From the NCBI GenBank assembly GCA_019359615.1, contig JAHHHA010000006.1:1-64000 (forward strand): a stretch of 64,000 bases of DNA, given 5' to 3'. The translations under genes were made by a program, and so were the position numbers. Positions within the stretch are counted from its first letter, which is position 1, and each line of letters starts with the position of its first letter. The DNA is from Cyanosarcina radialis HA8281-LM2. Its GTDB lineage: Bacteria > Cyanobacteriota > Cyanobacteriia > Cyanobacteriales > CCAP-1448. Below are positions 13,079 through 64,000 of the stretch, piece after piece. Under the pieces are notes generated by a model. The model was not told where the DNA came from, did not search any database, and saw nothing but the letters and a program-made list of their open reading frames with translations.

Positions 13079-14329
13079 ATGTATAGCACTACCACAAGCC
13101 ACTGGGGTCTGATCAGAGTTTCTACAGATAAGGGCTACCTACGCTTACAATTCCCGTCAGCCCTTAGTCGCACCTTCTACGGCAAGCGCCAGTTCTTTAA
13201 AGGTCTGGGTAGACCAGATACGCCCCAAAATCGGGAATGGGCTGAAAGATTAGTCAGCAGGATGCAAGCTGACATTGACCATCCTGATGCTTCTAAGTTG
13301 TTCGATCCGTCCTTAGAGAAATACTTAGGCATCAAGGTTGATAATGTGATCGCTCATCCCAGTAGTAATTCACTTCAATTGAAAGAGTTATGGTTTGAAT
13401 TTATTGAATTTAAATTGAGGACGGGTAAGATTGCTCAAACCACTTATAAAACCAGATACAAACGGACTTTCTCTAATTGGTTAGAACCGTATTTAGATGA
13501 GACTCTTTCGTATGAATTAGCAGAGAGAATTACTTTCGATCTGTTAGATAAAGTCTACAAGCCTAATTTGAAAAAAATGATAACAGCCTTGAAAGAAGCT
13601 TGCGATCGAGCAATCGGACAAGGAAAGTTACATTGCAATTTTTTTGCTAATCTTACTGACAGCATTAAAGTTAGTAAGAAATCTAGGCAACTATCAGAAG
13701 AGGAAGACTATAGAGCTTTTAGCCTCAAAGAAAGGGATATTATCCTTAAATCTTTCCGTCAATCGAACAAGTTAGCAGAAAGACAAATTGCCGATTTGAT
13801 AGAGTTTTTATTTTTAACAGGCTGTAGATTGGGAGAAGTTTTTGCCCTTAAATGGCAAGATGTCAAACAAGATTGGATCGTGTTCGATGAATCTTACTCT
13901 AGCGAAACCAAAATAACTGGACCTACCAAAACTGATACTATTAGGATTTTTAGAACTAAAGGGTATGGGCGACTGAATGGTTTAATCGATCGCTTACGCA
14001 CTAAACCTCATAAAAACAGCGATTACATCTTTACTACTGTTACAGGTAAGCAATACGATCGCTATAAGGTCAGTTCTGTCTGGCTAGGAAGCGACAAAAG
14101 CAAAAACGGGGTTGCGTATTACTATCCTGGAGTTGTTGCTAGATTAGTTGATGAAGGTGATATCAGTCAGTATCTAAAGCCTAGTGCTACACGCCATACT
14201 TTTATTACTCTTCAAGCTCATAATGGGGTAGATTTGAAGCTTCTAGCTGATTCAGTAGGCAACTCTGTTGATGTCATTTACAATCACTATTTAGGAGTAA
14301 ATAGAGAAGCTACTTTGGCTGATATTTAA
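13079..14329 (+). CDS. Tyrosine recombinase (integrase) of the tRNA-Asp element
   Basis: This 416-residue site-specific recombinase has an N-terminal arm-binding region (about 1-60), a SAM-like domain (about 100-200), and a catalytic domain with FLTGCRLGEVFALKW (Arg), FRTKGYGRL (Lys), SATRHTFIT (His/Arg equivalent with His shifted), SVGNSVD in place of the usual GH motif, and YNHYLG (Tyr). The GH-to-GN change occurs in some active phage integrases. It faces into the element from attL and is followed by a strong terminator, so it is an independent transcription unit. Confidence 0.9.
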   Translation: MYSTTTSHWGLIRVSTDKGYLRLQFPSALSRTFYGKRQFFKGLGRPDTPQNREWAERLVSRMQADIDHPDASKLFDPSLEKYLGIKVDNVIAHPSSNSLQLKELWFEFIEFKLRTGKIAQTTYKTRYKRTFSNWLEPYLDETLSYELAERITFDLLDKVYKPNLKKMITALKEACDRAIGQGKLHCNFFANLTDSIKVSKKSRQLSEEEDYRAFSLKERDIILKSFRQSNKLAERQIADLIEFLFLTGCRLGEVFALKWQDVKQDWIVFDESYSSETKITGPTKTDTIRIFRTKGYGRLNGLIDRLRTKPHKNSDYIFTTVTGKQYDRYKVSSVWLGSDKSKNGVAYYYPGVVARLVDEGDISQYLKPSATRHTFITLQAHNGVDLKLLADSVGNSVDVIYNHYLGVNREATLADI

Positions 14330-37711: not shown

Positions 37712-38285
37712 AATCGGTTATTTTGAGGCTTAATCCAGTATTTGCTCGCTCGCCAAGAGACTTGTAGTTTATTTTAGCTGGAATAACGATCGCGTCTCAT
37801 TTATCTGCTCTAAAGTCATATCTGTAGCTGCAAAGTAACTTAGTAACTAGCGAGATCGATCGCATTTTCACACAGACAACCCCAGAATCAGCGGTTACTG
37901 TATATTTACGTAGATAATTTTACTGATTCGTTTACCAGAATACAGGAGTGCCTACAGAAGTGACGGTCAAGCATTTAGCCAACAAACTCCGGTTGATTAC
38001 TTACGTAGTTTTACGTAACCGAGATTTGTTATTTCCGTGTTTATACGGATGATACTTAAGTGTTTTTTCCCGAAACTATAAAACAGCTTCACTTCTCTAA
38101 GTAAAAAACCGGATAAGCACTAATTAAAATGTGTTTTGAGACTCCAAGAAAATACTTACGTAAGTCTGCTGAAAGTCTGCGGTTTTTTACTTTTTAATCT
38201 TTAGGATCTAGTAGTTCAAATATTGCACCAGGCTCGATCGACGATCTGCCTAATTTCAACGTGTCAAATTTTTGGAGAATCTAAA
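37712..38285. promoter_or_regulatory. Divergent regulatory region with TTACGTA motifs
   Basis: TACGTA cores occur at 37907, 38002, 38012 and 38157, each in a TTACGTA(A/G) context; the last is the palindrome ACTTACGTAAGT. They lie upstream of the NRPS gene and could bind one regulator. No other gene is seen here. Confidence 0.5.
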
Positions 38286-41200
38286 ATGAGTAACTTATTC
38301 GCTGATGACAACGACCAAAATCCTCTTTTGCCAACAGAAACAGCATCATCGAAAATTGCTCTAGAATTGCCAGAATTATTACAACATTGGAATAACACTA
38401 AAGTCGATTATTCTTCAGCTTTGGGTATTCATCAGTTATTTGAAGATCGGGTAAGACGAAATCCAGAAAAGATTGCTATTACTTTTGAGGGCCAACAGCT
38501 AACTTATCGCGAACTAAACCATCAAGCCAATCAATTGGCGCATTACTTACAAACGCTAGGAGTTGAATCTGAAGTGTTGGTGGGAATTTGCGTCGAGCGA
38601 TCGCTCTGGATGGTAGTTGGGTTACTGGGCATTCTCAAAGCAGGCGGGGCTTACGTTCCCCTCGATCCAGCTTTCCCTCAAGATCGCTTGGCATTGATGG
38701 TGGAAGATGCCCAATTGCCAGTATTAGTTACAGAAAAAAATCTGCTGGCTGCTTTACCAGAGCATCGGGCTCAAGTCGTTTGTTTAGATACCGATGCCGA
38801 AGCGATCGCCCAACACTCTCAAACAAATCCTCATAGTTACGTTACTCCAGACAACCTAGCTTATACCATCTACACTTCTGGTTCGACTGGCAAACCCAAA
38901 GGCGTGCAAGTGCTACATCGCGGGGTGGTAAATTTCTTAACTTCTATGAGTGTAGCCCCCGGATTGACAGCCGAAGATATCTTGCTAGCCGTAACTACTA
39001 TTTCCTTCGATATTGCCGCTTTAGAACTTTACTTACCTCTATCGGTAGGGGCGCAGGTACATTTAGTCAGTCGGGAAGTTGCCTCAGATGCAGCGCGGTT
39101 GTCTCAGGCGATAGAAGAGTCGGGAGCCACTGTTTTACAAGCCACGCCCGCTACCTGGCGGATGTTGCTGGCTGGCGGTTGGCAAGGTAATTCCAGCCTG
39201 AAAATTCTTTGTGGTGGCGAAGCCATGTCTCGCGATTTAGCAGATAAGTTACTCGACAAAACCGCCGCCGTTTGGAATATGTACGGACCGACAGAAACCA
39301 CGATTTGGTCTACCGTCCATCAAGTAACGCCTGGAGAGGGACCGATTTCAGTAGGACGGCCGATCGCTAATACCCAAGTTTATATAGTAGATCCAGAACT
39401 GCAACGTCACGACGACCCCCTCAATATCTTGCCCGTCGGAGAAGCTGGAGAGTTACTAATTGGCGGAGTCGGTTTGGCGCGGGGTTATCTCAATCGCCCC
39501 GAATTGAACGAAGAAAAGTTCCTTCCCGATCCTTTCAGTGCCGAACTAGGGGCGCGGTTGTATCGCACGGGAGATTTAGCCCGCTACCTGCCAGATGGGA
39601 CGATTCAATGCGTCGGACGGATCGACCATCAAGTGAAAATTCGCGGCTTCCGGATCGAACTGGGAGACATCGAAGCCACCTTAAGCCAGTATCCAGGGGT
39701 GAGAGAAGCAGTAGTAGTCGGACATAAAGATAATTCTGGCGAACAAAGTTTAGCCGCTTACGTCATTCCCGAAACCGAAGATAACTTAACCGAAAAAACT
39801 CAACAATGGCAGCAGATTTGGAATCAAGCTTACAGCTACACTCCCAGCAGTGACGATCGCACCTTCAATACCAGCGGTTGGAACAATAGCTATACTGGGT
39901 TGCCCACCTCTGAAGAAGAAATGGCAGATTGGGTAGATCGTACGGTCGATCGCATCCTCTCTTTCCAACCGGAACGAATCTTAGAAATCGGTTGCGGTAC
40001 CGGATTGTTGCTATTCCGGTTAGTCGATTGCTGCGACCATTATGTCGGTACGGATATTGCTGAAGAGGCAATTCGCTACATCGAAGATAACTTAGATGAC
40101 AGCAATCGCGATCGAGTCAGCTTGCATTGTTGCGCCGCCGATAACTTAGCAGGAATTGAAACTGGTGCCTTCGATACGGTAGTCATCAATTCGGTAATTC
40201 AATATTTTCCCGATATGGATTACTTGGTGAAAGTTTTAACTGAAATCGCACGAGTAGTCAAACCAGGCGGTCGGATATTTGTCGGCGACGTTCGCAGCTT
40301 GCCTTTAATGAAAGCCTTCCACACCTCAGTGCAACTGCATCAAGCCCCCGATGCTTTACCTGCATCTGAGTTGCAACAGCGCATCCAAGAGAAGATCGAT
40401 CGAGAGCAACAAATGTATATTGCCCCAGAATTCTTTTTGGCGCTGCAAGAAGATATACCAGCGATCTCTCAAGTCCACACTTTACTGAAGCGGGGTAACG
40501 TCGAGAGCGAGTTAAATCGGTTCCGCTACGATGCGATTTTAGAAATAGGGACTACGGGTTACGCTCCTAACGCCCCAGTTTGGTTGAATTGGCAGCAACT
40601 AGGTTTGAACTTAAATATATTGCGCCAACACTTAGCAGCTACCCAGCCGGAATTATTGGGGATTACCCGCATTCCCAACGCTCGCACTTGCGTTGATGTC
40701 AAGGCCGTCAAATTATTACAAAACGATGCCGTGCAAACAGCCGGAGAGTTACGGGAAATCGTCAGCCGCACTGTCGGGATCGATCCAGAAGATTTATGGA
40801 GCTTGAGTCAAGAGTTATCTTATAACCTCTACATCAGCGAAGCTGCTGGTGCCACTGAAGGTTATTACGATATCGTCCTCCAGCGCCCAGAAGCAGATGG
40901 CCATGCAGCCATCCCCTCTTTCCCCACCAAAGTCTGGAGTTGCCTGCCTTGGAGCAGCTATGCCAACACGATCGAGCCTGCTAGCATTCTGCCCACCAAA
41001 GCTACCACCAACTTGGGTTCTCAGTTGCGGACGTTCTTAAAAGAAAAACTGCCTGCCTATATGGTTCCCAGCGCCTTCGTGACGATGGCAGCTTTTCCTC
41101 TAACACCAAATGGTAAAGTCGATCGCCGCGCCTTGCCAGCCCCTAACCAAGACCGACCGATTCTAGATAGCGAGTTTATTGCCCCTCGGACCTCGATCGA

Positions 41201-42677
41201 GCAAAAGTTAGCCCAAATTTGGACTCAGGTTTTGGGCATCGAGCAAATCGGCGTGAATGACAACTTCTTCGATCTAGGCGGGCATTCGCTGTTAACGGCT
41301 CAACTGCTATCTCACATCCGCGATACCTTCGAGGTAGAGTTGCCCTTAATTGCTCTGTTCCAAGCTCCTACGGTAGCAGGATTGGCAGCAGCTATAACTA
41401 ACGTGCAAAATTCTGATGCCGAAATCGCAACTGCACCTGAATTCCAAGCCGACGCGGTTCTAGACCCCAGCATTGTTGTGGATGTGCCTTATGTCGAGAG
41501 CGATCGCGAACCTCAAGATATCTTCTTAACTGGAGGTACTGGTTTCCTGGGTGCGTTCTTACTGCACGAATTGCTGAACCAAACCACAGCTACTATCTAT
41601 TGCTTGGTACGTGCCAAAACCCCCGCTGCTGCCATCCAAAAGTTGCGTTTAAACTTCCAACAATACTTACTGCCAAGCGATCGCCTAGAGCAGCGAGTCG
41701 TCCCAGTGCTAGGGGATTTAGCTCAACCCCTACTAGGAATTTCTCAAGAGCAGTTTACCGAGTTAGCCGCCAACATCGACACCATCTATCACAATGGCGC
41801 ATTTGTCAATTTAACCTATCCCTACGCCGCCTTACGTGCAGCTAACGTGTTGGGAACTCAAGAAATCTTGAAGTTAGCCAGCCGCGATCGAGTCAAACCC
41901 GTGCATTTCATCTCTACCCTCGATGTTTTCCAATCGCCCCACTATGCCCAAATGGCATCGATTCGCGAAGATGACGACTTAGGCGATGGTGTCGGTATCA
42001 CCGAAGGCTACGCTCAAAGTAAGTGGGTAGGAGAAAAACTGATGATGGCAGCCCGCGAAATCGGCATTCCCACCAGCATCTACCGCCCAGGAATGATTAC
42101 CGGACACAGCCAAACGGGTGCTTCTCAAACCAATGATTTGGTTTGCCGCTTGATCAAAGGCTTGATCCAACTGGGTACTGCTCCTACCTTAGATGTAAAA
42201 ATGAGTTTGACTCCTGTTGGTTACGTCAGTCGAGCGATCGTCCATCTGTCGCGGCAGTCTAACTCTCTGGGTAAAGCTTTCCACCTCGTCAATCCTCATG
42301 CAGTTGCCTTCCGGCGGTTCGTGCAAGAAATTCGCTCCTTTGGCTACCCCGTAGAGTGGACTAACTACCAGCAATGGCAAGAAATGCTGAAGACGGCTAG
42401 CGCCCAAAAAGATAACGCTTTGAGTCCTCTACTGTTTCTGTTTACCGATTGGAATTCGGAAAACTATTTCGAGACAGCTTCTTTAGGTTCCCAGTCGTTT
42501 GATTACCACAATACCCTGGCTGGTTTGGCAGCAAGTAACATTGCCTGTCCGACGGTAGATAGCCGATTGCTCCGCACTTATTTGTCTTACCTGATCCAGC
42601 GCGGTTTCTTAGTGGCACCGTCTGATGAAGTTGAATCTTCAGTAGAGACTAGGGAATTAGCGATCGCGATCGCCTAA
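38286..42677 (+). CDS. Single-module NRPS: A-(methyltransferase)-PCP-thioester reductase
   Basis: ATG 38286 follows GGAG; 1463 residues. The adenylation domain has YTSGSTGKPKG at about 196-206, YGPTETT at about 333 and NGKVDRRALP at about 943. It is interrupted between motifs A8 and A10 by a SAM methyltransferase (ILEIGCGTG at about 565; INSVIQYFP). A PCP follows (DNFFDLGGHSL, near 993, Ser carrier), then an NADPH reductase (LTGGTGFLG near 1082, catalytic Tyr/Lys in GYAQSKW). My reading of the pocket is DILQLGMIWK, one change from the glycine code. The product would be a small N-methylated amino aldehyde or alcohol. There is no condensation domain. Confidence 0.9.
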   Translation: MSNLFADDNDQNPLLPTETASSKIALELPELLQHWNNTKVDYSSALGIHQLFEDRVRRNPEKIAITFEGQQLTYRELNHQANQLAHYLQTLGVESEVLVGICVERSLWMVVGLLGILKAGGAYVPLDPAFPQDRLALMVEDAQLPVLVTEKNLLAALPEHRAQVVCLDTDAEAIAQHSQTNPHSYVTPDNLAYTIYTSGSTGKPKGVQVLHRGVVNFLTSMSVAPGLTAEDILLAVTTISFDIAALELYLPLSVGAQVHLVSREVASDAARLSQAIEESGATVLQATPATWRMLLAGGWQGNSSLKILCGGEAMSRDLADKLLDKTAAVWNMYGPTETTIWSTVHQVTPGEGPISVGRPIANTQVYIVDPELQRHDDPLNILPVGEAGELLIGGVGLARGYLNRPELNEEKFLPDPFSAELGARLYRTGDLARYLPDGTIQCVGRIDHQVKIRGFRIELGDIEATLSQYPGVREAVVVGHKDNSGEQSLAAYVIPETEDNLTEKTQQWQQIWNQAYSYTPSSDDRTFNTSGWNNSYTGLPTSEEEMADWVDRTVDRILSFQPERILEIGCGTGLLLFRLVDCCDHYVGTDIAEEAIRYIEDNLDDSNRDRVSLHCCAADNLAGIETGAFDTVVINSVIQYFPDMDYLVKVLTEIARVVKPGGRIFVGDVRSLPLMKAFHTSVQLHQAPDALPASELQQRIQEKIDREQQMYIAPEFFLALQEDIPAISQVHTLLKRGNVESELNRFRYDAILEIGTTGYAPNAPVWLNWQQLGLNLNILRQHLAATQPELLGITRIPNARTCVDVKAVKLLQNDAVQTAGELREIVSRTVGIDPEDLWSLSQELSYNLYISEAAGATEGYYDIVLQRPEADGHAAIPSFPTKVWSCLPWSSYANTIEPASILPTKATTNLGSQLRTFLKEKLPAYMVPSAFVTMAAFPLTPNGKVDRRALPAPNQDRPILDSEFIAPRTSIEQKLAQIWTQVLGIEQIGVNDNFFDLGGHSLLTAQLLSHIRDTFEVELPLIALFQAPTVAGLAAAITNVQNSDAEIATAPEFQADAVLDPSIVVDVPYVESDREPQDIFLTGGTGFLGAFLLHELLNQTTATIYCLVRAKTPAAAIQKLRLNFQQYLLPSDRLEQRVVPVLGDLAQPLLGISQEQFTELAANIDTIYHNGAFVNLTYPYAALRAANVLGTQEILKLASRDRVKPVHFISTLDVFQSPHYAQMASIREDDDLGDGVGITEGYAQSKWVGEKLMMAAREIGIPTSIYRPGMITGHSQTGASQTNDLVCRLIKGLIQLGTAPTLDVKMSLTPVGYVSRAIVHLSRQSNSLGKAFHLVNPHAVAFRRFVQEIRSFGYPVEWTNYQQWQEMLKTASAQKDNALSPLLFLFTDWNSENYFETASLGSQSFDYHNTLAGLAASNIACPTVDSRLLRTYLSYLIQRGFLVAPSDEVESSVETRELAIAIA

Positions 42678-42946: not shown

Positions 42947-44203
42947 TTATGGCAGCGGCAGTTCGATTTGGAAGACAGAGCCTTGTCCAACCTGGCTGCT
43001 GACGGCAATTCGCCCGCCGTGGGCGGCAATAATTTGTTCCACGATCGCCAGTCCCAAGCCGGAACCACCTGTGGCTCGCCCTCGTTCCGCATCGACTCGG
43101 TAAAATCGTTCAAAGATGTGGGGTAAATCTGCCTCTGGAATCCCAATTCCAGTATCTTCTACTCGAATTAAAACCCAGCGATGGTGCGGGATCGATCGCA
43201 ACCGCACGGTGCCTCTGTCCGGTGTATACCTACAGGCATTGGTAAGTAAGTTAGCGATCGCTTGCCGCAATAAATCGGGATGGCCTCGAACCGTGACAAT
43301 TGCTTCAGGCAGTTCTAGATCGAGAGTTAAATGCCGGGCCGCAGACCGAACGGGCAAAGCCGCGATCGTCTCTTTCAATAGATCGTTCAAATTTATCAAC
43401 TGGAGCGAATCTGGGTGCAACCGTCCCGCCTGCCGTGCCAAAAACAACAAATCTGTCACCAGTTGGTTCATCGATTTAGCGGCTGCCGCAATTTTTTCTA
43501 GACGAGTATGCTTGGGCTGGCCGGCTTCAACTGGGCTGAGCAAGCCAACTTGGGCGTTGCTGAGAATCGCTGCCAGCGGGGCCCTGAGTTCGTGGGAAGC
43601 ATCCGAGGTGAAGCGTTGCAGGCTGGCGTAAGCCTCCCAAATCGGCTGCATGGCTAGCTCGCCCAAACACCAACTCGCTAAACCGATCGCCCCTAAAGTC
43701 AGAGGTACTGCGATGACCATGACGACGAGTAACTCTTGCAAGGCATCCCGCGCCCCAGTTAGCGGCATGGCGATCTGAAGATAACCGATCGTCCGTCCGT
43801 TAGAGTCAACCGGAAGCGTTAGTTGCCGCAGCCATTCGGGATCGGACTGAATGGTTTCAAAGGCTGCCCTGGCCTGAATTCGATCGCTCGGTTGCGTCCC
43901 ATAAAACTGGCGCAATCTTCCAGTGGTGGTATACCAACGGGCGTAGACTACATTGTTATCTATGGGCGGAGAATAGCTTCCTAAAATCGGTACGTTGCTC
44001 AGATCGAGCCGCTCTTGGCCCGGTTGCCACTCGTAATCGACATTGGCAACCATGATTTTGGCTTTGCTATAGAGCAAGCGATCGCTCTCTTTCAAACGTT
44101 CGACGGCTCTTTGGTAATAAATCAGACTGGCAAACAGCACCAAAATGCTGCCCATCGACAGCATAAACCAGCGGGCCAGATTGCGGCGACTACGAGCGAA
44201 CAT
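42947..44203 (-). CDS. rppB: Sensor histidine kinase, RppB-type
   Basis: This 418-residue kinase has membrane helices at about 10-30 and 160-182 flanking an extracytoplasmic sensor region. A dimerisation helix contains FTSDASHELRAPLAAI (phospho-His near 205), and the ATPase domain has an N box near 325, DTGIGI near 359 and GGSGLGLAI near 386. It overlaps the upstream response regulator by 14 bp, so the pair is one operon. The RppAB/NrsRS group responds to redox or metal signals in Synechocystis; the signal here is unknown. Confidence 0.8.
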   Translation of the reverse strand: MFARSRRNLARWFMLSMGSILVLFASLIYYQRAVERLKESDRLLYSKAKIMVANVDYEWQPGQERLDLSNVPILGSYSPPIDNNVVYARWYTTTGRLRQFYGTQPSDRIQARAAFETIQSDPEWLRQLTLPVDSNGRTIGYLQIAMPLTGARDALQELLVVMVIAVPLTLGAIGLASWCLGELAMQPIWEAYASLQRFTSDASHELRAPLAAILSNAQVGLLSPVEAGQPKHTRLEKIAAAAKSMNQLVTDLLFLARQAGRLHPDSLQLINLNDLLKETIAALPVRSAARHLTLDLELPEAIVTVRGHPDLLRQAIANLLTNACRYTPDRGTVRLRSIPHHRWVLIRVEDTGIGIPEADLPHIFERFYRVDAERGRATGGSGLGLAIVEQIIAAHGGRIAVSSQVGQGSVFQIELPLP

Positions 44204-44870
44204 CTGGATTCAAACGATACCCCATACCGTAGACGGTTTCCAACCACCGATCGACACCTACCGCTTCTAGCCCCTGCCGCAAACGTCGCACGAGGACGGT
44301 AATCGCGTTACTTGCTGGTTCGGTTCCCCACTCCCACAAGACTTGTTCGATTCGATCGCGGGAGAGTACCTGTCGCGGGTGGTGCATCAAATATTCCAGC
44401 AGTTGAAATTCGCGGGCAGACAGTTGCACTATTCGATCGCCTCGCTCTACGGTTAGAGTGGCTAAATGCAGCGTTAAATCTGCCACCCGCAAGACATCTC
44501 CTTTCCATAAGGGCGATCGTCGTCCCAAGGCCCGCACTCGTGCCAGCAGTTCAAATACGTCGGCAGGCTTGATTAAATAATCGTCCGCCCCAGCATCCAA
44601 GCCGCCGATCCTGTCGGCGATCGCATCTTTTGCCGTCAAAATCAATACTGGAGCCGTCTTTCCCAAACGGCGATATTGCTGACAAAGATCTAGCCCGCTG
44701 ACTTGAGGTAATAGCCAATCTAAAATCAGCAGGTCGTAGTCCCGCGTCGACAAGGCCCACTGGGCGATCGCGCCGTCTTCCACGCCATCTACAATATGCC
44801 CTGCCTCTGAGAGCGCCGCCTGAAGGGGTTCTAGTTGTTGGGGGTCGTCTTCAACCAGCAGAATTCGCAT
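44190..44870 (-). CDS. rppA: OmpR-family response regulator, RppA-type
   Basis: This 226-residue protein has a receiver domain with an acidic pocket in LLVEDDPQQ, phospho-Asp in LLILDWLLP (about 52) and Lys in LIKPADVFE (about 103). A winged-helix effector domain (about 130-222) ends in VYGMGYRL. Its length and sequence fit RppA/NrsR. OmpR-type regulators bind direct repeats with 11-bp period. Four such repeats lie elsewhere in this island, making it a candidate binder. Confidence 0.85.
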   Translation of the reverse strand: MRILLVEDDPQQLEPLQAALSEAGHIVDGVEDGAIAQWALSTRDYDLLILDWLLPQVSGLDLCQQYRRLGKTAPVLILTAKDAIADRIGGLDAGADDYLIKPADVFELLARVRALGRRSPLWKGDVLRVADLTLHLATLTVERGDRIVQLSAREFQLLEYLMHHPRQVLSRDRIEQVLWEWGTEPASNAITVLVRRLRQGLEAVGVDRWLETVYGMGYRLNPDVRS

Positions 44871-55109: not shown

Positions 55110-57833
55110 TCAATCGAGAGGAGCGAAGCGATTAACCAACGTTGCCACTAAAATCATCGGCAAGCCTACTAACAAGCAAATTAGCCATTGGCTTAAGTTC
55201 AATGGCGCTGTCGAAAATAGCGCGTTCATTAGGCTCCATTGACTGAAAATCACCTGTAAGAGTATTGCGCCAACAATCCCGATAATAATGGCAGAAGCAT
55301 CGGTTACTCGTGCGACTCTGCCGCGAATTTTATTGAAGGTTCCGACACCTAACTGACTGATGCTCAATAGATAAAAAATTCTTCCGGCAACTAATGATTG
55401 AATTGCCATCGTGCGTGCAAGGGCAATGCTTCCCGTCGTTGCTTCGATCCACTCAAATATGCCAAAAATAAGAATCCAATTAAATACAGAAATGGCAATA
55501 ATGCGTTTTAATAATCTTCCAGAAAGTAAGGGTTCTTTGGGGTGGCGCGGGGGTTGTTGCATGACCCGCTCGGACTTCGGCTCGAAGGCGAGGGGAACCG
55601 TCATGGCAATGGAATTGACCATATTCAACCACAAAACTTGTAACGCTAAAATTGGCAAATCTCTGGCCAGCAATACGCTAATTAAAATCGTCATCGATTC
55701 ACCACCGTTGACGGGTAGAATAAAGGCGATCGCTTTGAGCAAATTTCGATAAACGGTTCTTCCTTCTTCAACTGCTGCTGCAATCGAAGCAAAGTTATCG
55801 TCGGTCAAAATCGCGTCAGCCGCTTCTTTTGCCACTTCCGTCCCAGCACCTCCCATAGCGATGCCGATATCGGCTTGCTTGAGCGCGGGGGCATCGTTAA
55901 CGCCATCTCCTGTCATGGCAACGACTTCGCCTTTTGACTGCAATGCTTCCACCAGGCGTAATTTCTGTTCGGGTGCGACGCGGGCAAATACTACCCCTTG
56001 TTCGATCGCGTTTGCCAATGCTTGGTTATCCATGCGCGTTAGTTCATGTCCGGTGAAAGCGATGACTTCCCCGTGCTTTTCCAGTCCCATGCGAGACGCG
56101 ATCGCTCTTGCAGTAACGGCATGATCTCCAGTAATCATTTTTACTTGAATGCCTGCCGCTTTACAGACTGCTACGGCTCTAATTGCCTCCTGTCGCGGTG
56201 GATCGATCATCCCTTGCAACCCGATAAAAATTAGACCTGCTTCGATATCTGCGTGGTCTAATGAATTTTGCTCGTCTCTAACGGATTTTTTAGCAAATGC
56301 CAGCACCCGTAACCCTAGTTCTGCCATCGCATCGGCTTCTTCATGGATTATGTTTGGAGCGAGGGAAGTTAAATTGCCTTGGGCATCAAGCATCTGCTGG
56401 GAGCGAGAGAGAATTGCCTCAAGGGAACCTTTAACGTAAATGATTTTTCTTGGTTCTCTGCTTCGATGCAAAGTTGCCATATACTGATACTCTGACTCGA
56501 AAGGAATTACATCAATCCTGAGCATCTTTTGTTCTAAGTCGGCGCGATTGTATCCCGCTTTGTTGGCAACGACAATCAACGCTCCTTCCGTTGGATCGCC
56601 AACAACATTCCACTGCCTGTCTTTGACTTCTAGGTGAGAGTCATTACATAACAATCCAGCGATGAGACATTCTTGTAGTATGCGAGATTTATCGAGTTCC
56701 ACTGGCGCTTCATCAAGAAAGATTTCTCCCTCTGGAACGTACCCTTCACCGCTAACGTGGTATTGATGCCCTCCCGCATAGATAGCTTGCACGGTCATTT
56801 GATTTTCCGTTAGCGTGCCCGTTTTATCCGAACAGATAACTGTGGCACTACCAAGGGTTTCCACTGCGGGTAATTTGCGGATAATGGCATGGCGGCGTGC
56901 CATCCGCGAAACCCCGATCGCGAGGGTAATTGTCACGACTGCGGGTAAGCCTTCGGGAATCGCACTCACTGCCAAGGCAACGGCAGCCTCGAACATTTCG
57001 ATCCAGGAGTAACCGTATCCCAAACCAACGGCAAACGTCAGTGCAGCGACTCCCAGAATGATATAGAGCAAGGTGCGACTGAATCGATCGAATTTGCGGG
57101 TTAAGGGCGTTTTCAGGTTGGTTTGCTGCTCCATTAACTGAGAAATTCGACCCGTTTCCGTTTCTTGCGCGATCGCGACGACAATTCCCTTGCCTTGCCC
57201 AAAAGTCACGAAACTGCCCGCATAAGCCATGTTGGTTCGTTCTGCCAACGGTGCATCGGCATCAAGGATTTGCAGGTTTTTTTCGACAGCAATGGATTCC
57301 CCTGTAAGTGCGGATTCATTGACTTGCAAATTTCGTGCCGCAATCAATCGCAAATCGGCTGGTACTTTGTCTCCAGAAGTCAGTAAAACCAAATCCCCTG
57401 GGACGATTTCCGTTGACGAAATTCTTACTTTTTGTCCCTCGCGAACGATGGTTGCCTCGGTTTGCACTGAAGAAGCTAAAGCCGCGATCGCGTTTTCGGC
57501 TTTAGCTTCTTGTATGAATCCGACGATGGCGTTAATCAGCGTTACACCCCAAATGACCCAAGCATTTACCCACTCTCCTAAGATGGCCTTAATTGCCCCC
57601 GCAACGAGCAAAATATAGAGCAACGGTTGGTTGAATTGCAGCAGAAATCGCACGATCGGGCTTTTCCCCGGTTTGCTTTTGAGTTCGTTAGGGCCAAAAC
57701 GCTCTCGTCGCTTGGCAACCTCAGCCGAGGTTAAACCTGTTTCTAAGTTACTGTCTAATTGTCGAGCGACTTCGCTTCCTGCTAGATGATGCCATTGTTG
57801 CGGTAGCAAGGATTTTTGGGTTATTGCAGTCAT
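55110..57833 (-). CDS. P-type cation-transporting ATPase (Ca2+-type, PMA/PacL group)
   Basis: A 907-residue P-ATPase with a cation_ATPase_N domain (1-70), an actuator domain with [14 protein letters not shown] (about 172-185), phosphorylation motif [14 protein letters not shown] (Asp about 336), a nucleotide-binding domain, and [24 protein letters not shown] (about 640-662). It has ten membrane helices, with [11 protein letters not shown] in M4, as in calcium pumps. It exports Ca2+ or another divalent cation. Neighbouring genes are also ion related. Confidence 0.9.
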
Positions 57834-58034
57834 ATTTTATCGATAAGCTTGTTATTAATCGATCGCACGAGCTTGTATAACGATTAACTTACCGCAGTTA
57901 ATCCGGTCGCAAAATTATCGTTATGTCATGCTTTATTTGATACTTGTTAAATAATAATTTTCATCCTCCTATAGATAGGCTTAATTAAGCGATCGCAGCA
58001 GGCGTGTTGGGCTTCACTCCGTTCAACCTAATTG

Positions 58035-58636
58035 CTAATTTTTCTTGCGTCGGCGACGAGTCACCCAAATCGCTATACCTATAACTGAGGCTACCGATAC
58101 GGCTAGAGAAATCGGGCCAAAATACTTTTCCACCAACTGAAAATTTTGCCCTAGCACGTAGCCTGTATAAGTTAGCAATCCTACCCAAATCAGCGTGCCA
58201 GATCCAGAGTAGGCGATAAAAGGTAGCAAAGACATCTCTTCAAAACCCGCAGGAATGGAGATATAGGTGCGAATTCCTGGAACGAGACGGCCGAAAAACA
58301 CGACTTTTTTCCCATGTCTGTAAAACCAGCGTTTAGATTTACCCACGTCTTCGCCAGATAAACCCAGCCATCGGCCGTGGCGGTCTGCCCATTGTCTCAT
58401 GCGTCGTTCTCCCACCAGCTTGCCCAGGCGATACCAAAGCAAAGCACCGAGAACGATGCCTGTAGTTCCTGCCAGTACGACAGCAGGAAGTTGAGTTCGC
58501 CTCTTTGCACGGTAAATCCCGCTAGGGGCATAATTAGCTCTTCGGATACGGGAGGAAAAAAGTTTTCCAACAGCATCAACAGAGCAATGCCGAGATAGCC
58601 CATTGAAGAAATGGCGTTAGTAATCCAATCGAGCAT
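58035..58636 (-). pseudogene. DedA family membrane protein, single-base frameshift
   Basis: The 5' frame (58636 to about 58480) gives MLDWITNAISSMGYLGIALL...RGELNFLLS. The rest, in another frame, is VVLAGTTGIVLGALLWYRLG to the C-terminus RRRRKKN. Restoring one G near 58480 (CTGTCG to CTGGTCG) joins them into a full DedA protein of about 200 residues with EELIMPLAG, the FFGRLVPGIRTYISIPAG motif and four to five membrane helices. DedA proteins are putative proton-linked lipid flippases. The lesion may be real or a sequencing error; all other parts are intact. Confidence 0.75.
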
Positions 58637-58667
58637 AAATTTTAGATAAACTCAAAAAGCGATCGAA

Positions 58668-58880
58668 CTAGAAACGAAATCCTAGTAAATTCCAGTAGTT
58701 CAAAAACGGAATAAACATCAGGGCAGCTAGCGTGAAAATAGAGTAATGCAGTCTTCCCAAAAACGACCAATAGTTATTTCTCCATCAGTCCAAGCAACCC
58801 GCACAGAAGTTGCTTGAACTTTTGCCTGATTTGTGAATAAATAAGCGACAACTGATTTTGGTTCTTTCTTTGAAAGATGC
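58668..58880 (-). pseudogene. Remnant of a membrane-anchored C-terminus
   Basis: Two overlapping frames read NQAKVQATSVRVAWTDGEIT, then, after a shift, NYWSFLGRLHYSIFTLAALM and FIPFLNYWNLLGFRF-stop. This looks like the C-terminal tail and last membrane helix of a larger envelope protein, possibly a serine hydrolase. No intact start or body remains. Confidence 0.4.
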
Positions 58881-58980
58881 TCATAGCCTCAATAAAATGC
58901 TTTTGCAGAGATGTATTTCTCTAATAACGGGTTTGCTCGTGCAATTGTTCTGCTTTTTCTAGCAACGGGTGCGAATGAAA

Positions 58981-59001
58981 CAATGCGACCCAAAAGTGAC
59001 A
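58981..59001 (-). promoter_or_regulatory. GTCAC direct-repeat box D
   Basis: Minus strand GTCACTTT-TGG-GTCGCATT (one mismatch), about 100 bp upstream of the remnant and about 345 bp upstream of the DedA gene. Confidence 0.5.
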
Positions 59002-59017
59002 GATCTGGACGTATTGG

Positions 59018-60433
59018 CTATAGCTGCAAAATCACTCTGGCCGCGCTGAGATAGATCCACACTCCCAACACATCAACTGCTGTGGTAATAAACGGAGCGG
59101 ACATCAACGCTGGATCTAAACCAAAGGAGCGAAAGAGAAATGGTAGCGCCGAACCAGCAATGGCAGCGAGAACAGAAATCGCAAATAGACTCGCTCCCAC
59201 CGCGATCGCTACCAGCACATCTCCTTGCAGAAATGTTGCCCAGATAAATACCACCAATCCCAGCATGGCTCCGAGCAATAGCCCAGCGATCGTCTCTCGC
59301 CAGATGACCCAGACTGCCTGTTTCATCCGACTTTCTTCGGTATTGAGTCCGCGAATCACGACCGTTGAAGACTGCGCTCCCACATTTCCCCCAGCATCGA
59401 TGAGTAAAGGAATAAATGCAGCTAGGGTAACGACTTGTTCGAGAACGTCTTCCTGGCTGCGAATCACCCCGATAGTTAAAGTATTGGTGACAAATAACAC
59501 CAACAACCACAGCACCCGCTGGCGAGCAATGGCAAACAGATTGGCTTGAAAATAACTATCTTTGCTGGCTTGCAAGCCGCCCATGGCATAAATATCTTCG
59601 GTGGTTTCCTGCTCTAAAATATCTAGGACATCATCTACAGTAATAATTCCTACCAGTCGTTGCTCTCGATCGACCACGGGTAGTGCTACAAAGTCATATT
59701 CTTGAATCAGGCGGGCGGCTTCTTCTCGATCGGTATCGGTACTGACAGACACGACATCCCGCGTCATAATGCTGCTAATGGTTTGCTCCGGCCCAGCGAC
59801 AATCAGTTCTCGTAACGACAAAATTCCAGTCAAGCAGCGATCGCGATCGGTGACGTACAAATAAGAAATTGTTTCTACCCGATCGGCTAAACGTCGAATT
59901 TTTTCTAAAGCCTGCTGTACGGTTCGCTCCTCTTTCAGCGATAAATATTCAGGGGTCATCAACCGTCCGGCGGTATTGGGTTTAAACCCTAATAGCAACA
60001 CGGTGGTATCTCGTTCTTCAGGAGATAGTTGTTGCCATAGCCGCCGAACGACTTTAGCTGGGAGTTCGTCGAACAAACGCGCCCGCTCGTCCGGCGACAT
60101 CCGATCGACGATCTCCAGCAACTCTGGCTGTCTGAAGTCTTCGATTAATGCCTGCTGCACCTCAGTATCGAGATATTCGTAAACTTCAATGGCCTCATCT
60201 TTTGATAGCAGGCGAAAGGCGATCGCTTGCATGGTGTTGGGCAACGTTTCGATCGCGTCGGCAATGTCAGCCGGATGGGCCGGAACCAGCAAGGCTTTGG
60301 CCTCATTCAAGTGTCTTTCTGCCAGTAGCCTTTTGAGTTGCACTCGCAACCACTCTACATATTCCTGCTGAGAATTTGCTTGGCTCCTGGAAAACAATGG
60401 TTGTAAAGCTGAAGGACGTTCGGTTGGATTCAT
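59018..60433 (-). CDS. mgtE: Magnesium transporter MgtE
   Basis: This 471-residue protein has an MgtE N domain (about 30-145: helical repeats with DEAIEVYEYLD and DDLP/DELPAKVVRRL), two CBS domains (about 150-270: MTPEYLSLKEERTVQQALEK, IMTRDVVSVSTDTDREEAAR), a plug helix, and a C-terminal five-helix membrane domain with LIDAGGNVGAQSSTVVIRGL and ADVD-like TAVDVLGVW. It is a Mg2+ channel gated by intracellular Mg2+ through the N/CBS domains. Confidence 0.95.
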   Translation of the reverse strand: MNPTERPSALQPLFSRSQANSQQEYVEWLRVQLKRLLAERHLNEAKALLVPAHPADIADAIETLPNTMQAIAFRLLSKDEAIEVYEYLDTEVQQALIEDFRQPELLEIVDRMSPDERARLFDELPAKVVRRLWQQLSPEERDTTVLLLGFKPNTAGRLMTPEYLSLKEERTVQQALEKIRRLADRVETISYLYVTDRDRCLTGILSLRELIVAGPEQTISSIMTRDVVSVSTDTDREEAARLIQEYDFVALPVVDREQRLVGIITVDDVLDILEQETTEDIYAMGGLQASKDSYFQANLFAIARQRVLWLLVLFVTNTLTIGVIRSQEDVLEQVVTLAAFIPLLIDAGGNVGAQSSTVVIRGLNTEESRMKQAVWVIWRETIAGLLLGAMLGLVVFIWATFLQGDVLVAIAVGASLFAISVLAAIAGSALPFLFRSFGLDPALMSAPFITTAVDVLGVWIYLSAARVILQL

Positions 60434-60511
60434 ACTTGTTGCCGCTTTACCGCTAAAAGTTGAAGAGCCAAATTGGACTTAAAGAGAATAGGGAAAATTT
60501 TGGAAGTTGTC

Positions 60512-61735
60512 TTACTGGGTAATGCGAAGAATCTTATCCCCATCTGGCGGACAACTGCCGCGCCCGTCGCAATTACTGGTGGTGACGTAGAGTTCGCCAT
60601 CCGGCCCCATAATGGCTTCTCGCAACCGTCCGTGCTGTCCTTGCAAATAGACTTCGTGCTGCTGCACTCGACCGGATTGCGGATCGATGACCACTCGCTG
60701 CAATTGTTCTGCCCCCAGTGCGGCGACGATGAAATTACCCTGCCATTCAGGAATGGCTTTACCCCTGTAAATTGCCGCTCCTCCAGGCGGTAATGCCTGT
60801 TGCCAGACGATTGCTGGAGTGACTAATCCCTCTCTGGATTCGCAGCGATAAATAGTCGGCCAGCCCAAGTTATCGCCAGCCCGCGCCACGCTGACTTTAT
60901 CGTGTCCCGATCGCCCCAACTCGCCACTGGGGCCGTGGTCGCTCACCCATAAGGTCGAGTCATTTACCCAATCAAAGCCTTGAGTGTTGCGAATTCCCAA
61001 AATGTAAACTGGATTCCCAGAGAAGGGATTGTCGGCGGGTACTTGTCCGTCGGGGGTGACGCGCAAAATCTTACCAGCCAGACTGTTAGCATCCTGAGAC
61101 AGGTCTGGATCTCTCGCATCCCCCGTACCGATGTAGAGCATTCCATCCGGGCCGAAGCGAATCCGGCCGCCGTTATGGAATTGGGCAACGGGAATATTGT
61201 CAACGATCGTGCGATCGCGCTTTGCCCTCAGTCTGTCCTCAGATAGCTGCCATCGTTCTACTCGATTGACATCAGAGCCATTATCATCGGCAGTGAAATA
61301 GACGTAAAATAATCGATTATTGGCAAAATCGGGATGGGTAGCAATCCCCAACAATCCCCCTTCACCGCGATCGCTGACGTTGATGGTGGCGATCGCTTCC
61401 GGGCGTAATTTACCGTTCTGTACCAGTCGCACCCGTCCCGATCGTTCGGATACCAGCAGATCGCCATCGGGGAGAAAACCTATTCCCCAAGGAACATCCA
61501 GCCCCGTTACTACTTCTTCTACCCGCACGCTAACCTGTCCTTCGGAACCAAATCCATCTTCCACCAAAAGGCAGCTTGCTTGGGAGTCATTTGGGCGATC
61601 GGCTTGCGCCTGTTCTAAGGGAACGGTTTGAGCAGCGCCAGAGGTGTCGCCGATCTGGTTTGGGGAGGGGTTACAGGCCGCCAGTCCTAACATTCCCAAC
61701 ATTAACCCGATTGTCAAAATGTTCGATCGTTTCAT
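60512..61735 (-). CDS. PQQ-dependent sugar dehydrogenase-like lipoprotein
   Basis: A 407-residue protein with signal peptide and lipobox (MKRSNILTIGLMLGMLGLAA then Cys), hence membrane-anchored in the periplasm. The rest is the six-bladed propeller of the glucose/sorbosone dehydrogenase family: VPWGIGFLPDGDLLVSERSG, GEGGLLGIATHPDFANNRLF, HNGGRIRFGPDGMLYIGTGD, and the C-terminal GPDGELYVTTS. It oxidises aldose sugars with PQQ; the natural substrate is unknown. It lies 22 bp after the AI-2E family gene, forming an operon. Confidence 0.85.
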   Translation of the reverse strand: MKRSNILTIGLMLGMLGLAACNPSPNQIGDTSGAAQTVPLEQAQADRPNDSQASCLLVEDGFGSEGQVSVRVEEVVTGLDVPWGIGFLPDGDLLVSERSGRVRLVQNGKLRPEAIATINVSDRGEGGLLGIATHPDFANNRLFYVYFTADDNGSDVNRVERWQLSEDRLRAKRDRTIVDNIPVAQFHNGGRIRFGPDGMLYIGTGDARDPDLSQDANSLAGKILRVTPDGQVPADNPFSGNPVYILGIRNTQGFDWVNDSTLWVSDHGPSGELGRSGHDKVSVARAGDNLGWPTIYRCESREGLVTPAIVWQQALPPGGAAIYRGKAIPEWQGNFIVAALGAEQLQRVVIDPQSGRVQQHEVYLQGQHGRLREAIMGPDGELYVTTSNCDGRGSCPPDGDKILRITQ

Positions 61736-61757
61736 GTTTTCTTACCTGTTAATTTGC

Positions 61758-62864
61758 TTAAAAAGCATCTTCTTCAGTATTAGGTTCTAAAATGTCCTGT
61801 AAATAGATCGTTCGCACCATGACGAACGCCACCACCGTCAGGGGAGTCGCCGCTAAAACGCCCAACGGGCCGAATAGAATGCCCAACGCTAAGACCGTCG
61901 ATAAGCCCAAAGCCGGGGGCAGAGATACCACCTGCTGTTGGACGATCGGGGTGAGGATGTTGCCTTCAAGCTGCTGCACCACGAGATAGAACAGCGCCAC
62001 GTAAACCGCTCGAAGCGGACTGAGGGTAAAGGCAATCAAAATTCCTGGAACCGCTGCCAGCACCGGCCCGACTACAGGAATAAATTCCAACAGGGCGGCG
62101 ATGATGCCCAACACCAGAGCCAGAGGAATATCTAACAACCACAGGCCGAGACTGACGACGATGCCGATTACCACCATCGAAATAATTCGCCCTAACAGCC
62201 AGGCCCGCAGTCCTCGGACTACGCCGTCGATGACCTCCCGCGTCCGTTTTCGCCCTCTGGGGGGAACCAGGCTGACAATGCCGCTGCGATACAGATGGGG
62301 ATCGATCGCCACAAACAGTCCGATAAATAGCACGAACAGGCCATTTGCCAGCACTCCCAGCGTCAGCGTAAAGGTATCCATCACTTGAGTGAGAACGTTG
62401 TTGGGATCGAGCCAGGGATTGCTACCGCCAAAAATGCCACCGATGCCGTCTTGGCCGAATTGCTCGCTGGCGATCGCTTCGAGTTGTTCGATCGCCTTTC
62501 CCACCTGCTCTACCAGCAGGTCTGCCTGGTTGAGAATTTCTGGCACCAGGAACCAGCCTAACGCACCCAACATCAATGCCAGCAGCAGGACGATCGCTCC
62601 TAAAGCCCATTTCTCAGAGATGGGGGTTATCCGGGCCAGGGGTTTGGCCAGAGTTCTCAAGGCGATCGCCAGTAGCACTCCCAAAAAGACCAGCAGCAAG
62701 ACATCAACGACTGCCCAGGAAAACCAGGCCATCAGGATAAATAGCCCCACCACGCCAACCGCTAACAGCACGCGGCTTAGATAGCTGCGGCGATGCCGTC
62801 TTCTTGCCCCTAGCAATTTGAGGTGACGGGAATGATTCGTTCGTCGTTCTCGCGGTCGGGCCAT
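61758..62864 (-). CDS. AI-2E family transporter (368 aa)
   Basis: An eight-helix membrane protein of the TqsA/UPF0118 family with a basic N-terminus, characteristic segments RAWLLGRIISMVVIGIVVSL and LLEFIPVVGPVLAAVPGILI (about 265-284), and a C-terminal GPLGVLAATPLTVVAFVMV. Substrates vary (AI-2, Na+/H+ exchange in some). It lies 22 bp after the debranching-type gene and before the sugar dehydrogenase in the same operon. Confidence 0.85.
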   Translation of the reverse strand: MARPRERRTNHSRHLKLLGARRRHRRSYLSRVLLAVGVVGLFILMAWFSWAVVDVLLLVFLGVLLAIALRTLAKPLARITPISEKWALGAIVLLLALMLGALGWFLVPEILNQADLLVEQVGKAIEQLEAIASEQFGQDGIGGIFGGSNPWLDPNNVLTQVMDTFTLTLGVLANGLFVLFIGLFVAIDPHLYRSGIVSLVPPRGRKRTREVIDGVVRGLRAWLLGRIISMVVIGIVVSLGLWLLDIPLALVLGIIAALLEFIPVVGPVLAAVPGILIAFTLSPLRAVYVALFYLVVQQLEGNILTPIVQQQVVSLPPALGLSTVLALGILFGPLGVLAATPLTVVAFVMVRTIYLQDILEPNTEEDAF

Positions 62865-62886
62865 GCCGATCTATGCTCCGGTTGCC

Positions 62887-64000
62887 TTATACGTGGGATA
62901 ACTGTAGAGTCTCAGGTGTCCAGGGCTGCCAGGATTGCCGTTCGATCGCGATTTGCCCGGACTGCACCACAGCATCCCAGCGGGTTTGTTCCCCTTCTCG
63001 CCAGAAACGTAAATCGACCTGGGCGTTGCCAATTTCGACCTGGCGGAGCGTAATATCTGGCAACCAATCTGGTAAGGCTGGATCGACCAAAAGTAAGCCG
63101 TTGGGCGCATCTGCCTGAAGTCCCAAGATCGCTTGCAGGAGTTGAAATACCGATGCCGCCGCCCATCCTTGGGGCACGTTGGCTTCTCGATAAGGGGCGG
63201 GAAAAGCTCCAACTTGGCGATCGATCCCGCCATAGAGTTCTGGAATGCGGTAGCTGGCAAAATGGCGGGCAGCGTCAAAAATCCCCTCGGCCACCTGGGC
63301 TACTTCTGCCGTCAAGCCATATCGCTTCAACCCCATGGCAATGATGCCGTTGTCGTGGGGCCAGACCGAACCCCGGTGATAGGAAAAGGGATTGTATGCC
63401 GGATTATCGGACGACAGGGTGCGAATGCCCCAACCGCTCCACATATCCGGTTGCAGGAGCCGTCGCCCTACCTGCACCGCCCGATCTGGCCGCACGATGC
63501 CGCTCCAGAGGCAGTGTCCCGGATTGGAGGCGATCGTCTTCACTGGCTGTTTATCGGGGTCTAGGGCAAAGGCGTAGAAGCCCAACTCCTCGCACCAAAA
63601 ACGTTCTTCAAACTGGGATTGCAACTTAGCTGCTTTTTGGCGCAACTCCGCCGCCCGCTGGCCTTCTCCCAACGCCTCAAATACTTCTGCCATTCGCATC
63701 CGAGCGTCGAAGGCATAGCCCTGCAACTCGCACAGTGCCTTGGGCGCTTGCACTTGGCTGCCGTCTGGATAAACGATCGCATCCCCAGAATCTTTCCACG
63801 CCTGATTGTCGATTCCTGCTGTCGATCGCTTCTGATACTCTTGAAAGCCATCGCTATCTAAGTCGCCGTAGCGATCGAACCAATCCAAGCCGCGATCGAT
63901 CGCCTCTCGGTAGTCGTGTAATAAAGATATGTCGCCGAGCCATTTCCAGGTTTCGTGCAGGGTAATTAAAAACAGAGCCGTAGTATCCGCCGCTCCGTAA
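62887..64000 (-). CDS. Amylo-alpha-1,6-glucosidase/GDE-type glycoside hydrolase, 5' end outside window
   Basis: The frame is open to the window edge. The C-terminal 371 residues show the (alpha/alpha)6 domain of the glycogen-debranching GDE_C family: TALFLITLHETWKWLGD, RYGDLDSDGFQEY, GWKDSGDAI-like AWKDSGDAIVYPDG (about the acid catalyst Asp), GHCLWSGIV, FSYHRGSVWPHDNGIIAMG (second catalytic region) and SAAWAAASVFQLLQ-like WAAASVFQLLQAIL. Many such cyanobacterial proteins act on alpha-glucan or unknown glycosides. It leads an operon with the AI-2E exporter and sugar dehydrogenase. Confidence 0.85.
   Translation of the reverse strand, partial: YGAADTTALFLITLHETWKWLGDISLLHDYREAIDRGLDWFDRYGDLDSDGFQEYQKRSTAGIDNQAWKDSGDAIVYPDGSQVQAPKALCELQGYAFDARMRMAEVFEALGEGQRAAELRQKAAKLQSQFEERFWCEELGFYAFALDPDKQPVKTIASNPGHCLWSGIVRPDRAVQVGRRLLQPDMWSGWGIRTLSSDNPAYNPFSYHRGSVWPHDNGIIAMGLKRYGLTAEVAQVAEGIFDAARHFASYRIPELYGGIDRQVGAFPAPYREANVPQGWAAASVFQLLQAILGLQADAPNGLLLVDPALPDWLPDITLRQVEIGNAQVDLRFWREGEQTRWDAVVQSGQIAIERQSWQPWTPETLQLSHV

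Follow-up and report, generated by a model that had tools for sequence, protein, structure and literature searches.

HamD is described as a mono-modular adenylation-thiolation-reductase (A-T-R) enzyme that releases an amino-acid-derived quorum-sensing signal, valdiazen, by reduction, and PvfC as the non-ribosomal peptide synthetase (NRPS) of an autoinducer cluster (in the relevant sections of PMC5878181 and PMC10194917, respectively). A comparable enzyme is encoded in the first 64 kb of contig C39 of Cyanosarcina radialis HA8281-LM2 (genome of 6.5 Mb in 65 contigs), a stretch referred to here as the window. Like HamD and PvfC, it is a stand-alone NRPS-like enzyme, in this case known from sequence alone. 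HamD and PvfC use valine or leucine, and Pvf has an N-oxygenase, whereas the window enzyme has a glycine code and a methyltransferase (MT) within its adenylation (A) domain, and no N-oxygenase of the PvfB type adjoins it, neither immediate neighbour of its gene being an oxygenase. The reading preferred here, with a probability of roughly 0.55, is that this one enzyme makes one small N-methylated amine. Its family is proposed to consist of enzymes linked to amino-alcohol signalling or to transport and recycling.

An MT inserted in the A domain is also found in the NRPS of entry 5wmm, which we take to be TioS (the entry title says only NRPS) and which presumably belongs to an assembly line; unlike it, the window enzyme stands alone and ends in a reductase (R) domain. 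The fungal and nematode glycine betaine reductase ATRR is an NRPS-like enzyme without a condensation (C) domain that reduces a glycine derivative (as given in part of PMC11050029), but it has two R domains, uses preformed betaine as substrate and has no MT. Lys2 and the carboxylic acid reductases share the A-T-R layout (the TIGR03443 match was below cut-off) but have other substrates and no MT, and the R match to carboxylic acid reductases was much weaker. On the sensing side, ethanolamine and L-alaninol are strong ligands of CqsR, a dCache_1 kinase of Vibrio cholerae, and 2-methylaminoethanol is a weak one; these ligands are of the product types predicted from the glycine- and alanine-type codes of the family. 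CqsR is likened to the cyanobacterial sensors described below through the shared dCache_1 only, and the sections of PMC7046293 that report its ligands mention no dedicated NRPS-like synthase. An amine motif is described for dCache_1AM (PMC10104139, in part).

Domain organization and predicted product of the window enzyme

The window gene occupies 38286-42677 on the forward strand and encodes 1463 aa, with its stop at 42677. It starts at an ATG (38286) with GGAG at 38274-38277, 8 nt upstream; an in-frame TTG is also present further upstream, at 38223. Pfam domains were found in the order AMP-binding, methyltransferase, PP-binding and NAD_binding_4 (Male sterility), with no Condensation domain in the Pfam scan of the protein, and both TIGR01733 (A, 452 bits) and TIGR01746 (thioester reductase, 365 bits) of NCBIfam scored above cut-off. 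The motifs A3, A5, A7, A8 and A10, MT I-III, the serine of the peptidyl carrier (PCP), and the NADPH, Ser-Thr and Tyr-Lys motifs of the R domain are intact. These domains and motifs confirm what the first-pass annotation had proposed, a stand-alone A-MT-PCP-reductase without a C domain. The protein thus combines A, PCP and R in the manner of NRPS-like A-T-R enzymes, and its A domain is of the interrupted kind, having an S-adenosylmethionine (SAM)-dependent MT with N-MT motifs between A8 and A10. The parts, all on the forward strand, are as follows.

38373-39785 (+): adenylation domain, large part to core A8 (PF00501, TIGR01733; pocket DILQLGMIW by alignment)
39798-41000 (+): N-methyltransferase domain between A8 and A10 (PF08242 and others; 5wmm, 5.7e-43; LEIGCGTG, NSVIQYFP, GGRIFVGDV)
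41001-41180 (+): remaining C-terminal part of the adenylation domain (A10 PLTPNGKVDR; tenth code residue K944)
41202-41396 (+): peptidyl carrier domain (PF00550; FFDLGGHSLL, Ser1001)
41520-42611 (+): thioester reductase domain (TIGR01746, 365 bits; MxaA 4u7w, 1.2e-108; LTGGTGFLG, HFISTLDVF, GYAQSKW)

The substrate pocket had been read by eye as DILQLGMIWK, and the residues taken by alignment were identical. The added remark that this lies one substitution from the glycine code has to be corrected, since DILQLGMIWK is itself printed as the signature common to four glycine-activating (MOX-type) domains in the pertinent section of PMC12283262. The window A domain thus carries the ten-residue code of known glycine domains, and activation of glycine is the best reading of it. 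As the structure model of the A-MT-T region was unusable (mean pLDDT 36.6), the pocket assignment rests on sequence alignment.

On this reading of the code, the A domain would adenylate glycine and load it onto its own PCP. The inserted MT, whose best solved match was the NRPS methyltransferase chain 5wmm (5.7e-43), would then N-methylate the tethered glycine using SAM, as suggested by its N-MT family; a free starter amine may be methylated once or twice. Without a C domain the enzyme can process only its own amino acid and, with a terminal reductase in addition, no chain can be built. Finally, the R domain would release N-methylaminoacetaldehyde with NADPH, most likely to be reduced further to N-methylethanolamine. 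Glycine activation, N-methylation and reductive release together are the best reading of the predicted activity.

The best solved match of the R domain was MxaA (4u7w, 366.7 bits), against 120.9 bits for the best carboxylic acid reductase, and its top NCBIfam match was MxcG, below cut-off. The R domains of myxalamid and myxochelin are listed as alcohol-forming in part of PMC2835699. Because the window R domain is nearest to MxaA, from an alcohol-forming pathway, N-methylethanolamine is favoured and appears a somewhat likelier product than the aldehyde. It is doubtful that the R domain instead stops after two electrons and releases N-methylaminoacetaldehyde, to be oxidised, reduced or condensed by another enzyme. 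Precedents for aldehyde formation exist in the R domains of Lys2, nostocyclopeptide and saframycin (same part of PMC2835699), and genes of one short-chain-dehydrogenase cluster, whose products could use an aldehyde as substrate, were found no more than 8 kb away in six of the 39 loci introduced below (two of the six checked by Pfam). The MxaA relationship speaks for the alcohol, however, and no short-chain dehydrogenase of that cluster was seen beside the window gene.

Signalling and transport genes beside the relatives

Altogether 39 distinct stand-alone A-(MT)-T-R loci were collected in cyanobacteria from a GTDB contig search, 386 genomes across the phylum and 388 genomes of the order, completeness not being the aim; three duplicate rows (L048 = L211, L206 = L043 and L215 = L034) were excluded. 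Loci were picked by enzyme similarity, most of them before their neighbours were inspected, and a second batch, obtained once the earliest sensor neighbours were known, was picked solely by R-domain match and open-frame length. The C-less A-MT-T-R layout of the window enzyme recurs in 15 of the 39 (including L037, split over two frames), and the remainder have no MT or a different insert. The window code is exact in 20 loci and within one substitution in 25, the window included and L213, one of the exact cases, being read across two frames. A 4'-phosphopantetheinyl transferase gene directly follows the Aliterella A-MT-T-R gene (L034:13369-14100), and a XisH/XisI gene pair was seen near three A-T-R loci (L029:7825-8573, and also L208 and L210).

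As the first-pass annotation had stated, no biosynthetic partner lies beside the window gene, an NRPS partner included. For the family, 'orphan' is nevertheless the wrong frame: the relatives have genes for signalling and transport beside them rather than genes for biosynthesis. When the dCache region of one neighbouring kinase (L035) was searched in the 388 genomes of the order, 47 matches in 38 genomes were obtained. Twelve of the 17 strongest start 90 to 417 bp downstream of an R-domain match on the same strand (some of these partners, frames of about 1500 aa, being counted by R-domain match alone), whereas none of the 30 weaker ones does. Of the five strong matches without such a partner, two have a contig edge less than 700 bp upstream. 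The pairing is the firmest evidence obtained for a link between enzyme and dCache sensor.

A same-strand sensor kinase or receiver protein was found next door in 16 of the 39 loci, compared with 6 of 263 background genes (P = 1e-11, a value that overstates independence because the loci are mutually related). The background consisted of interior genes, called mechanically, from 20 stretches of 20 kb at round coordinates in 11 genomes. With either strand allowed, the counts became 18/39 and 13/263, the window being one of the two extra loci. The sensor was dCache_1 in 12 of 15 aligned neighbouring kinases. By hand count, signalling genes stand beside 11 of the 15 MT-bearing genes (divergently in L234), the others being the window gene, L217, L064 and L143, the last of which ends 229 bases past the gene.

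Other sensory proteins recur as well. An amino-acid-permease-like domain is fused to PAS and kinase domains directly beside the A-MT-T-R gene of L142 (L142:5205-7862) and to PAS-GGDEF-EAL directly beside that of L034 (L034:5155-8817), and the same permease-like sensor start, reaching the contig edge, adjoins a third (L214:4664-6598); none of the three matched the ethanolamine-type permease profile. L233 lies within an operon of chemotaxis type that encodes a periplasmic binding protein along with CheW, MCP and CheA parts; L221 and L223 share some of this operon, and the L061 locus has a GAF-MCP protein.

In the tree, the window gene has as its sister group (support 1.00) a clade with a transport link. 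An ethanolamine-type permease was found within 8 kb in eight loci, as same-strand nearest neighbour in six of them, and all eight permeases matched TIGR00908 (ethanolamine permease) best but, where scores are shown, below its cut-off (368.5 and 360.6 versus 381.75 bits), so that the substrate is not settled. Six of these loci fall in the sister clade (L205, L208, L209, L210 and L212 in the tree; L213, not in the tree, was placed by architecture alone); the other two, L029 and L061, pair together close to it. In all six proteins tested, the site of the window MT is occupied by tandem PilZ (cyclic di-GMP) domains.

L205, L207, L209, L210, L211 (= L048) and L043, approximately residues 505-720 in L205 and to 840 in L048: tandem PilZ in the interrupted adenylation domain

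The insert of these relatives had been considered as a decayed MT, which was rejected once it proved to be tandem PilZ. The model of the L048 PilZ region was weak overall (57.7), but its top Foldseek matches in PDB include the PilZ/c-di-GMP proteins PlzA, MotI and VCA0042, which supports the PilZ fold. In the open-licence PMC literature, no paper was found on PilZ within an NRPS, on A-MT-T-R layouts (in the spellings tried) or on NRPS-like enzymes of cyanobacteria that are accompanied by sensor kinases.

Amino-alcohol signalling or recycling is proposed for the family because CqsR binds such alcohols and the A-T-R enzyme HamD makes a quorum-sensing signal. A wider and more tentative proposal is that one-module NRPS-like enzymes of cyanobacteria make diffusible amino alcohols (ethanolamine, N-methylethanolamine, perhaps alaninol) as signals read by dedicated dCache kinases, chemotaxis operons or permease-sensor fusions. 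One clade would be under c-di-GMP control through PilZ spliced into the A domain, and the window enzyme would be its N-methylating sister. If true, this would be a small-molecule signalling chemistry of cyanobacteria in which many genomes encode the synthase next to its receptor. It would also provide a candidate NRPS-type enzyme gated by c-di-GMP, and a route from glycine to amino alcohols separate from the usual phospholipid routes to ethanolamine.

The window copy in its own genome

Judging by analogy from the gene neighbourhoods of the relatives, the enzyme probably supplies an amine that is extracellular or transported, to be sensed or taken up, rather than a peptide precursor. This sensing or uptake is the weakest step for the window copy, whose own role would follow from that of its relatives. 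A dedicated sensor adjoins the synthase in relatives but not in the window, where the sole signalling neighbour is convergent.

42947-44870 (-): convergent two-component pair, an RppB-like kinase (below the NCBIfam cut-off) and an RppA-like regulator (above it)

As a partner of the enzyme this pair was set aside as probably unrelated, since it lies on the opposite strand and belongs to a common family. Elsewhere in the genome, contig C3 encodes a second stand-alone enzyme, an A-T-R without MT (code DILQLGMVWK) whose A domain is 64% and whose last part is 58% identical to the window enzyme. The same strand carries a permease gene upstream of it, and the product of that gene scores best in NCBIfam against TIGR00908, the ethanolamine permease, with 368.5 bits where the cut-off is 381.75. 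A search of this genome for a counterpart of the L142 permease-kinase fusion matched kinase parts only and found no such fusion. Contig C6 carries a chemosensory-type operon (L284:3829-12478) with two dCache proteins, one of them fused to MCPsignal, and a CheA-type hybrid. These dCache proteins are weaker homologues of the A-T-R-linked sensors; the pair is a possible but unsupported partner because its subgroup never adjoins an R domain (0/30).

Several observations weigh against the preferred reading of the window enzyme and its family. Neither a sensor nor a permease accompanies the window copy on its own strand, and the closest dCache homologues of its genome, those on C6, fall in the group never found next to an R domain. 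Two further permease copies in the genome are unlinked, the scores of the clustered permeases fall short as given above, and EutB (ethanolamine ammonia-lyase) is absent from the genome, so that no ethanolamine sink is known. The pockets of the relatives L142 and L214 are altered. Lastly, although MxaA is the nearest solved relative of the R domain, the R sequence alone does not decide between aldehyde and alcohol.

The missing sensor also fits an explanation in which the product serves ordinary metabolism (as an osmolyte, a nitrogen store or the head group of a phospholipid) and the link of the relatives to sensors does not extend to the window copy. The sister clade, tied to a transporter and PilZ rather than to dCache kinases, points the same way. 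This explanation is nonetheless considered unlikely, as relatives are found repeatedly beside sensory proteins of several kinds, which fits signalling better.

It is a good deal less probable that the A domain uses a different small substrate (alanine, serine or glycine that is methylated beforehand), or that the MT methylates otherwise than predicted. Among the pockets of the 39 loci that stand further from the window code, six are glycine-like, four read DLFNNALTYK, which we take to be an alanine code, and four are of other kinds. Codes are also statistical rather than structural, and the model was too poor for a check of the pocket. The window code, however, equals the published glycine code letter for letter and is conserved in relatives.

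It is very improbable that the window enzyme is a module left over or displaced from a larger assembly line of NRPS type and acts in trans: there are further NRPS loci in the genome (on contigs C21, C43 and C50) and the relative L144 is a true C-A-MT-T-R terminal module, but the window protein begins cleanly ahead of its A domain, has no C domain to accept a chain and shares its C-less layout with other loci, and the NRPS loci on C21 and C50 possess R domains of their own.

Elsewhere in the window, a gene of the phage-integrase family is present at 13079-14329, and the end of the window (55110-64000) holds a run of ion-transport genes (P-type cation ATPase, MgtE) and a gene for an AI-2E family transporter (61758-62864).

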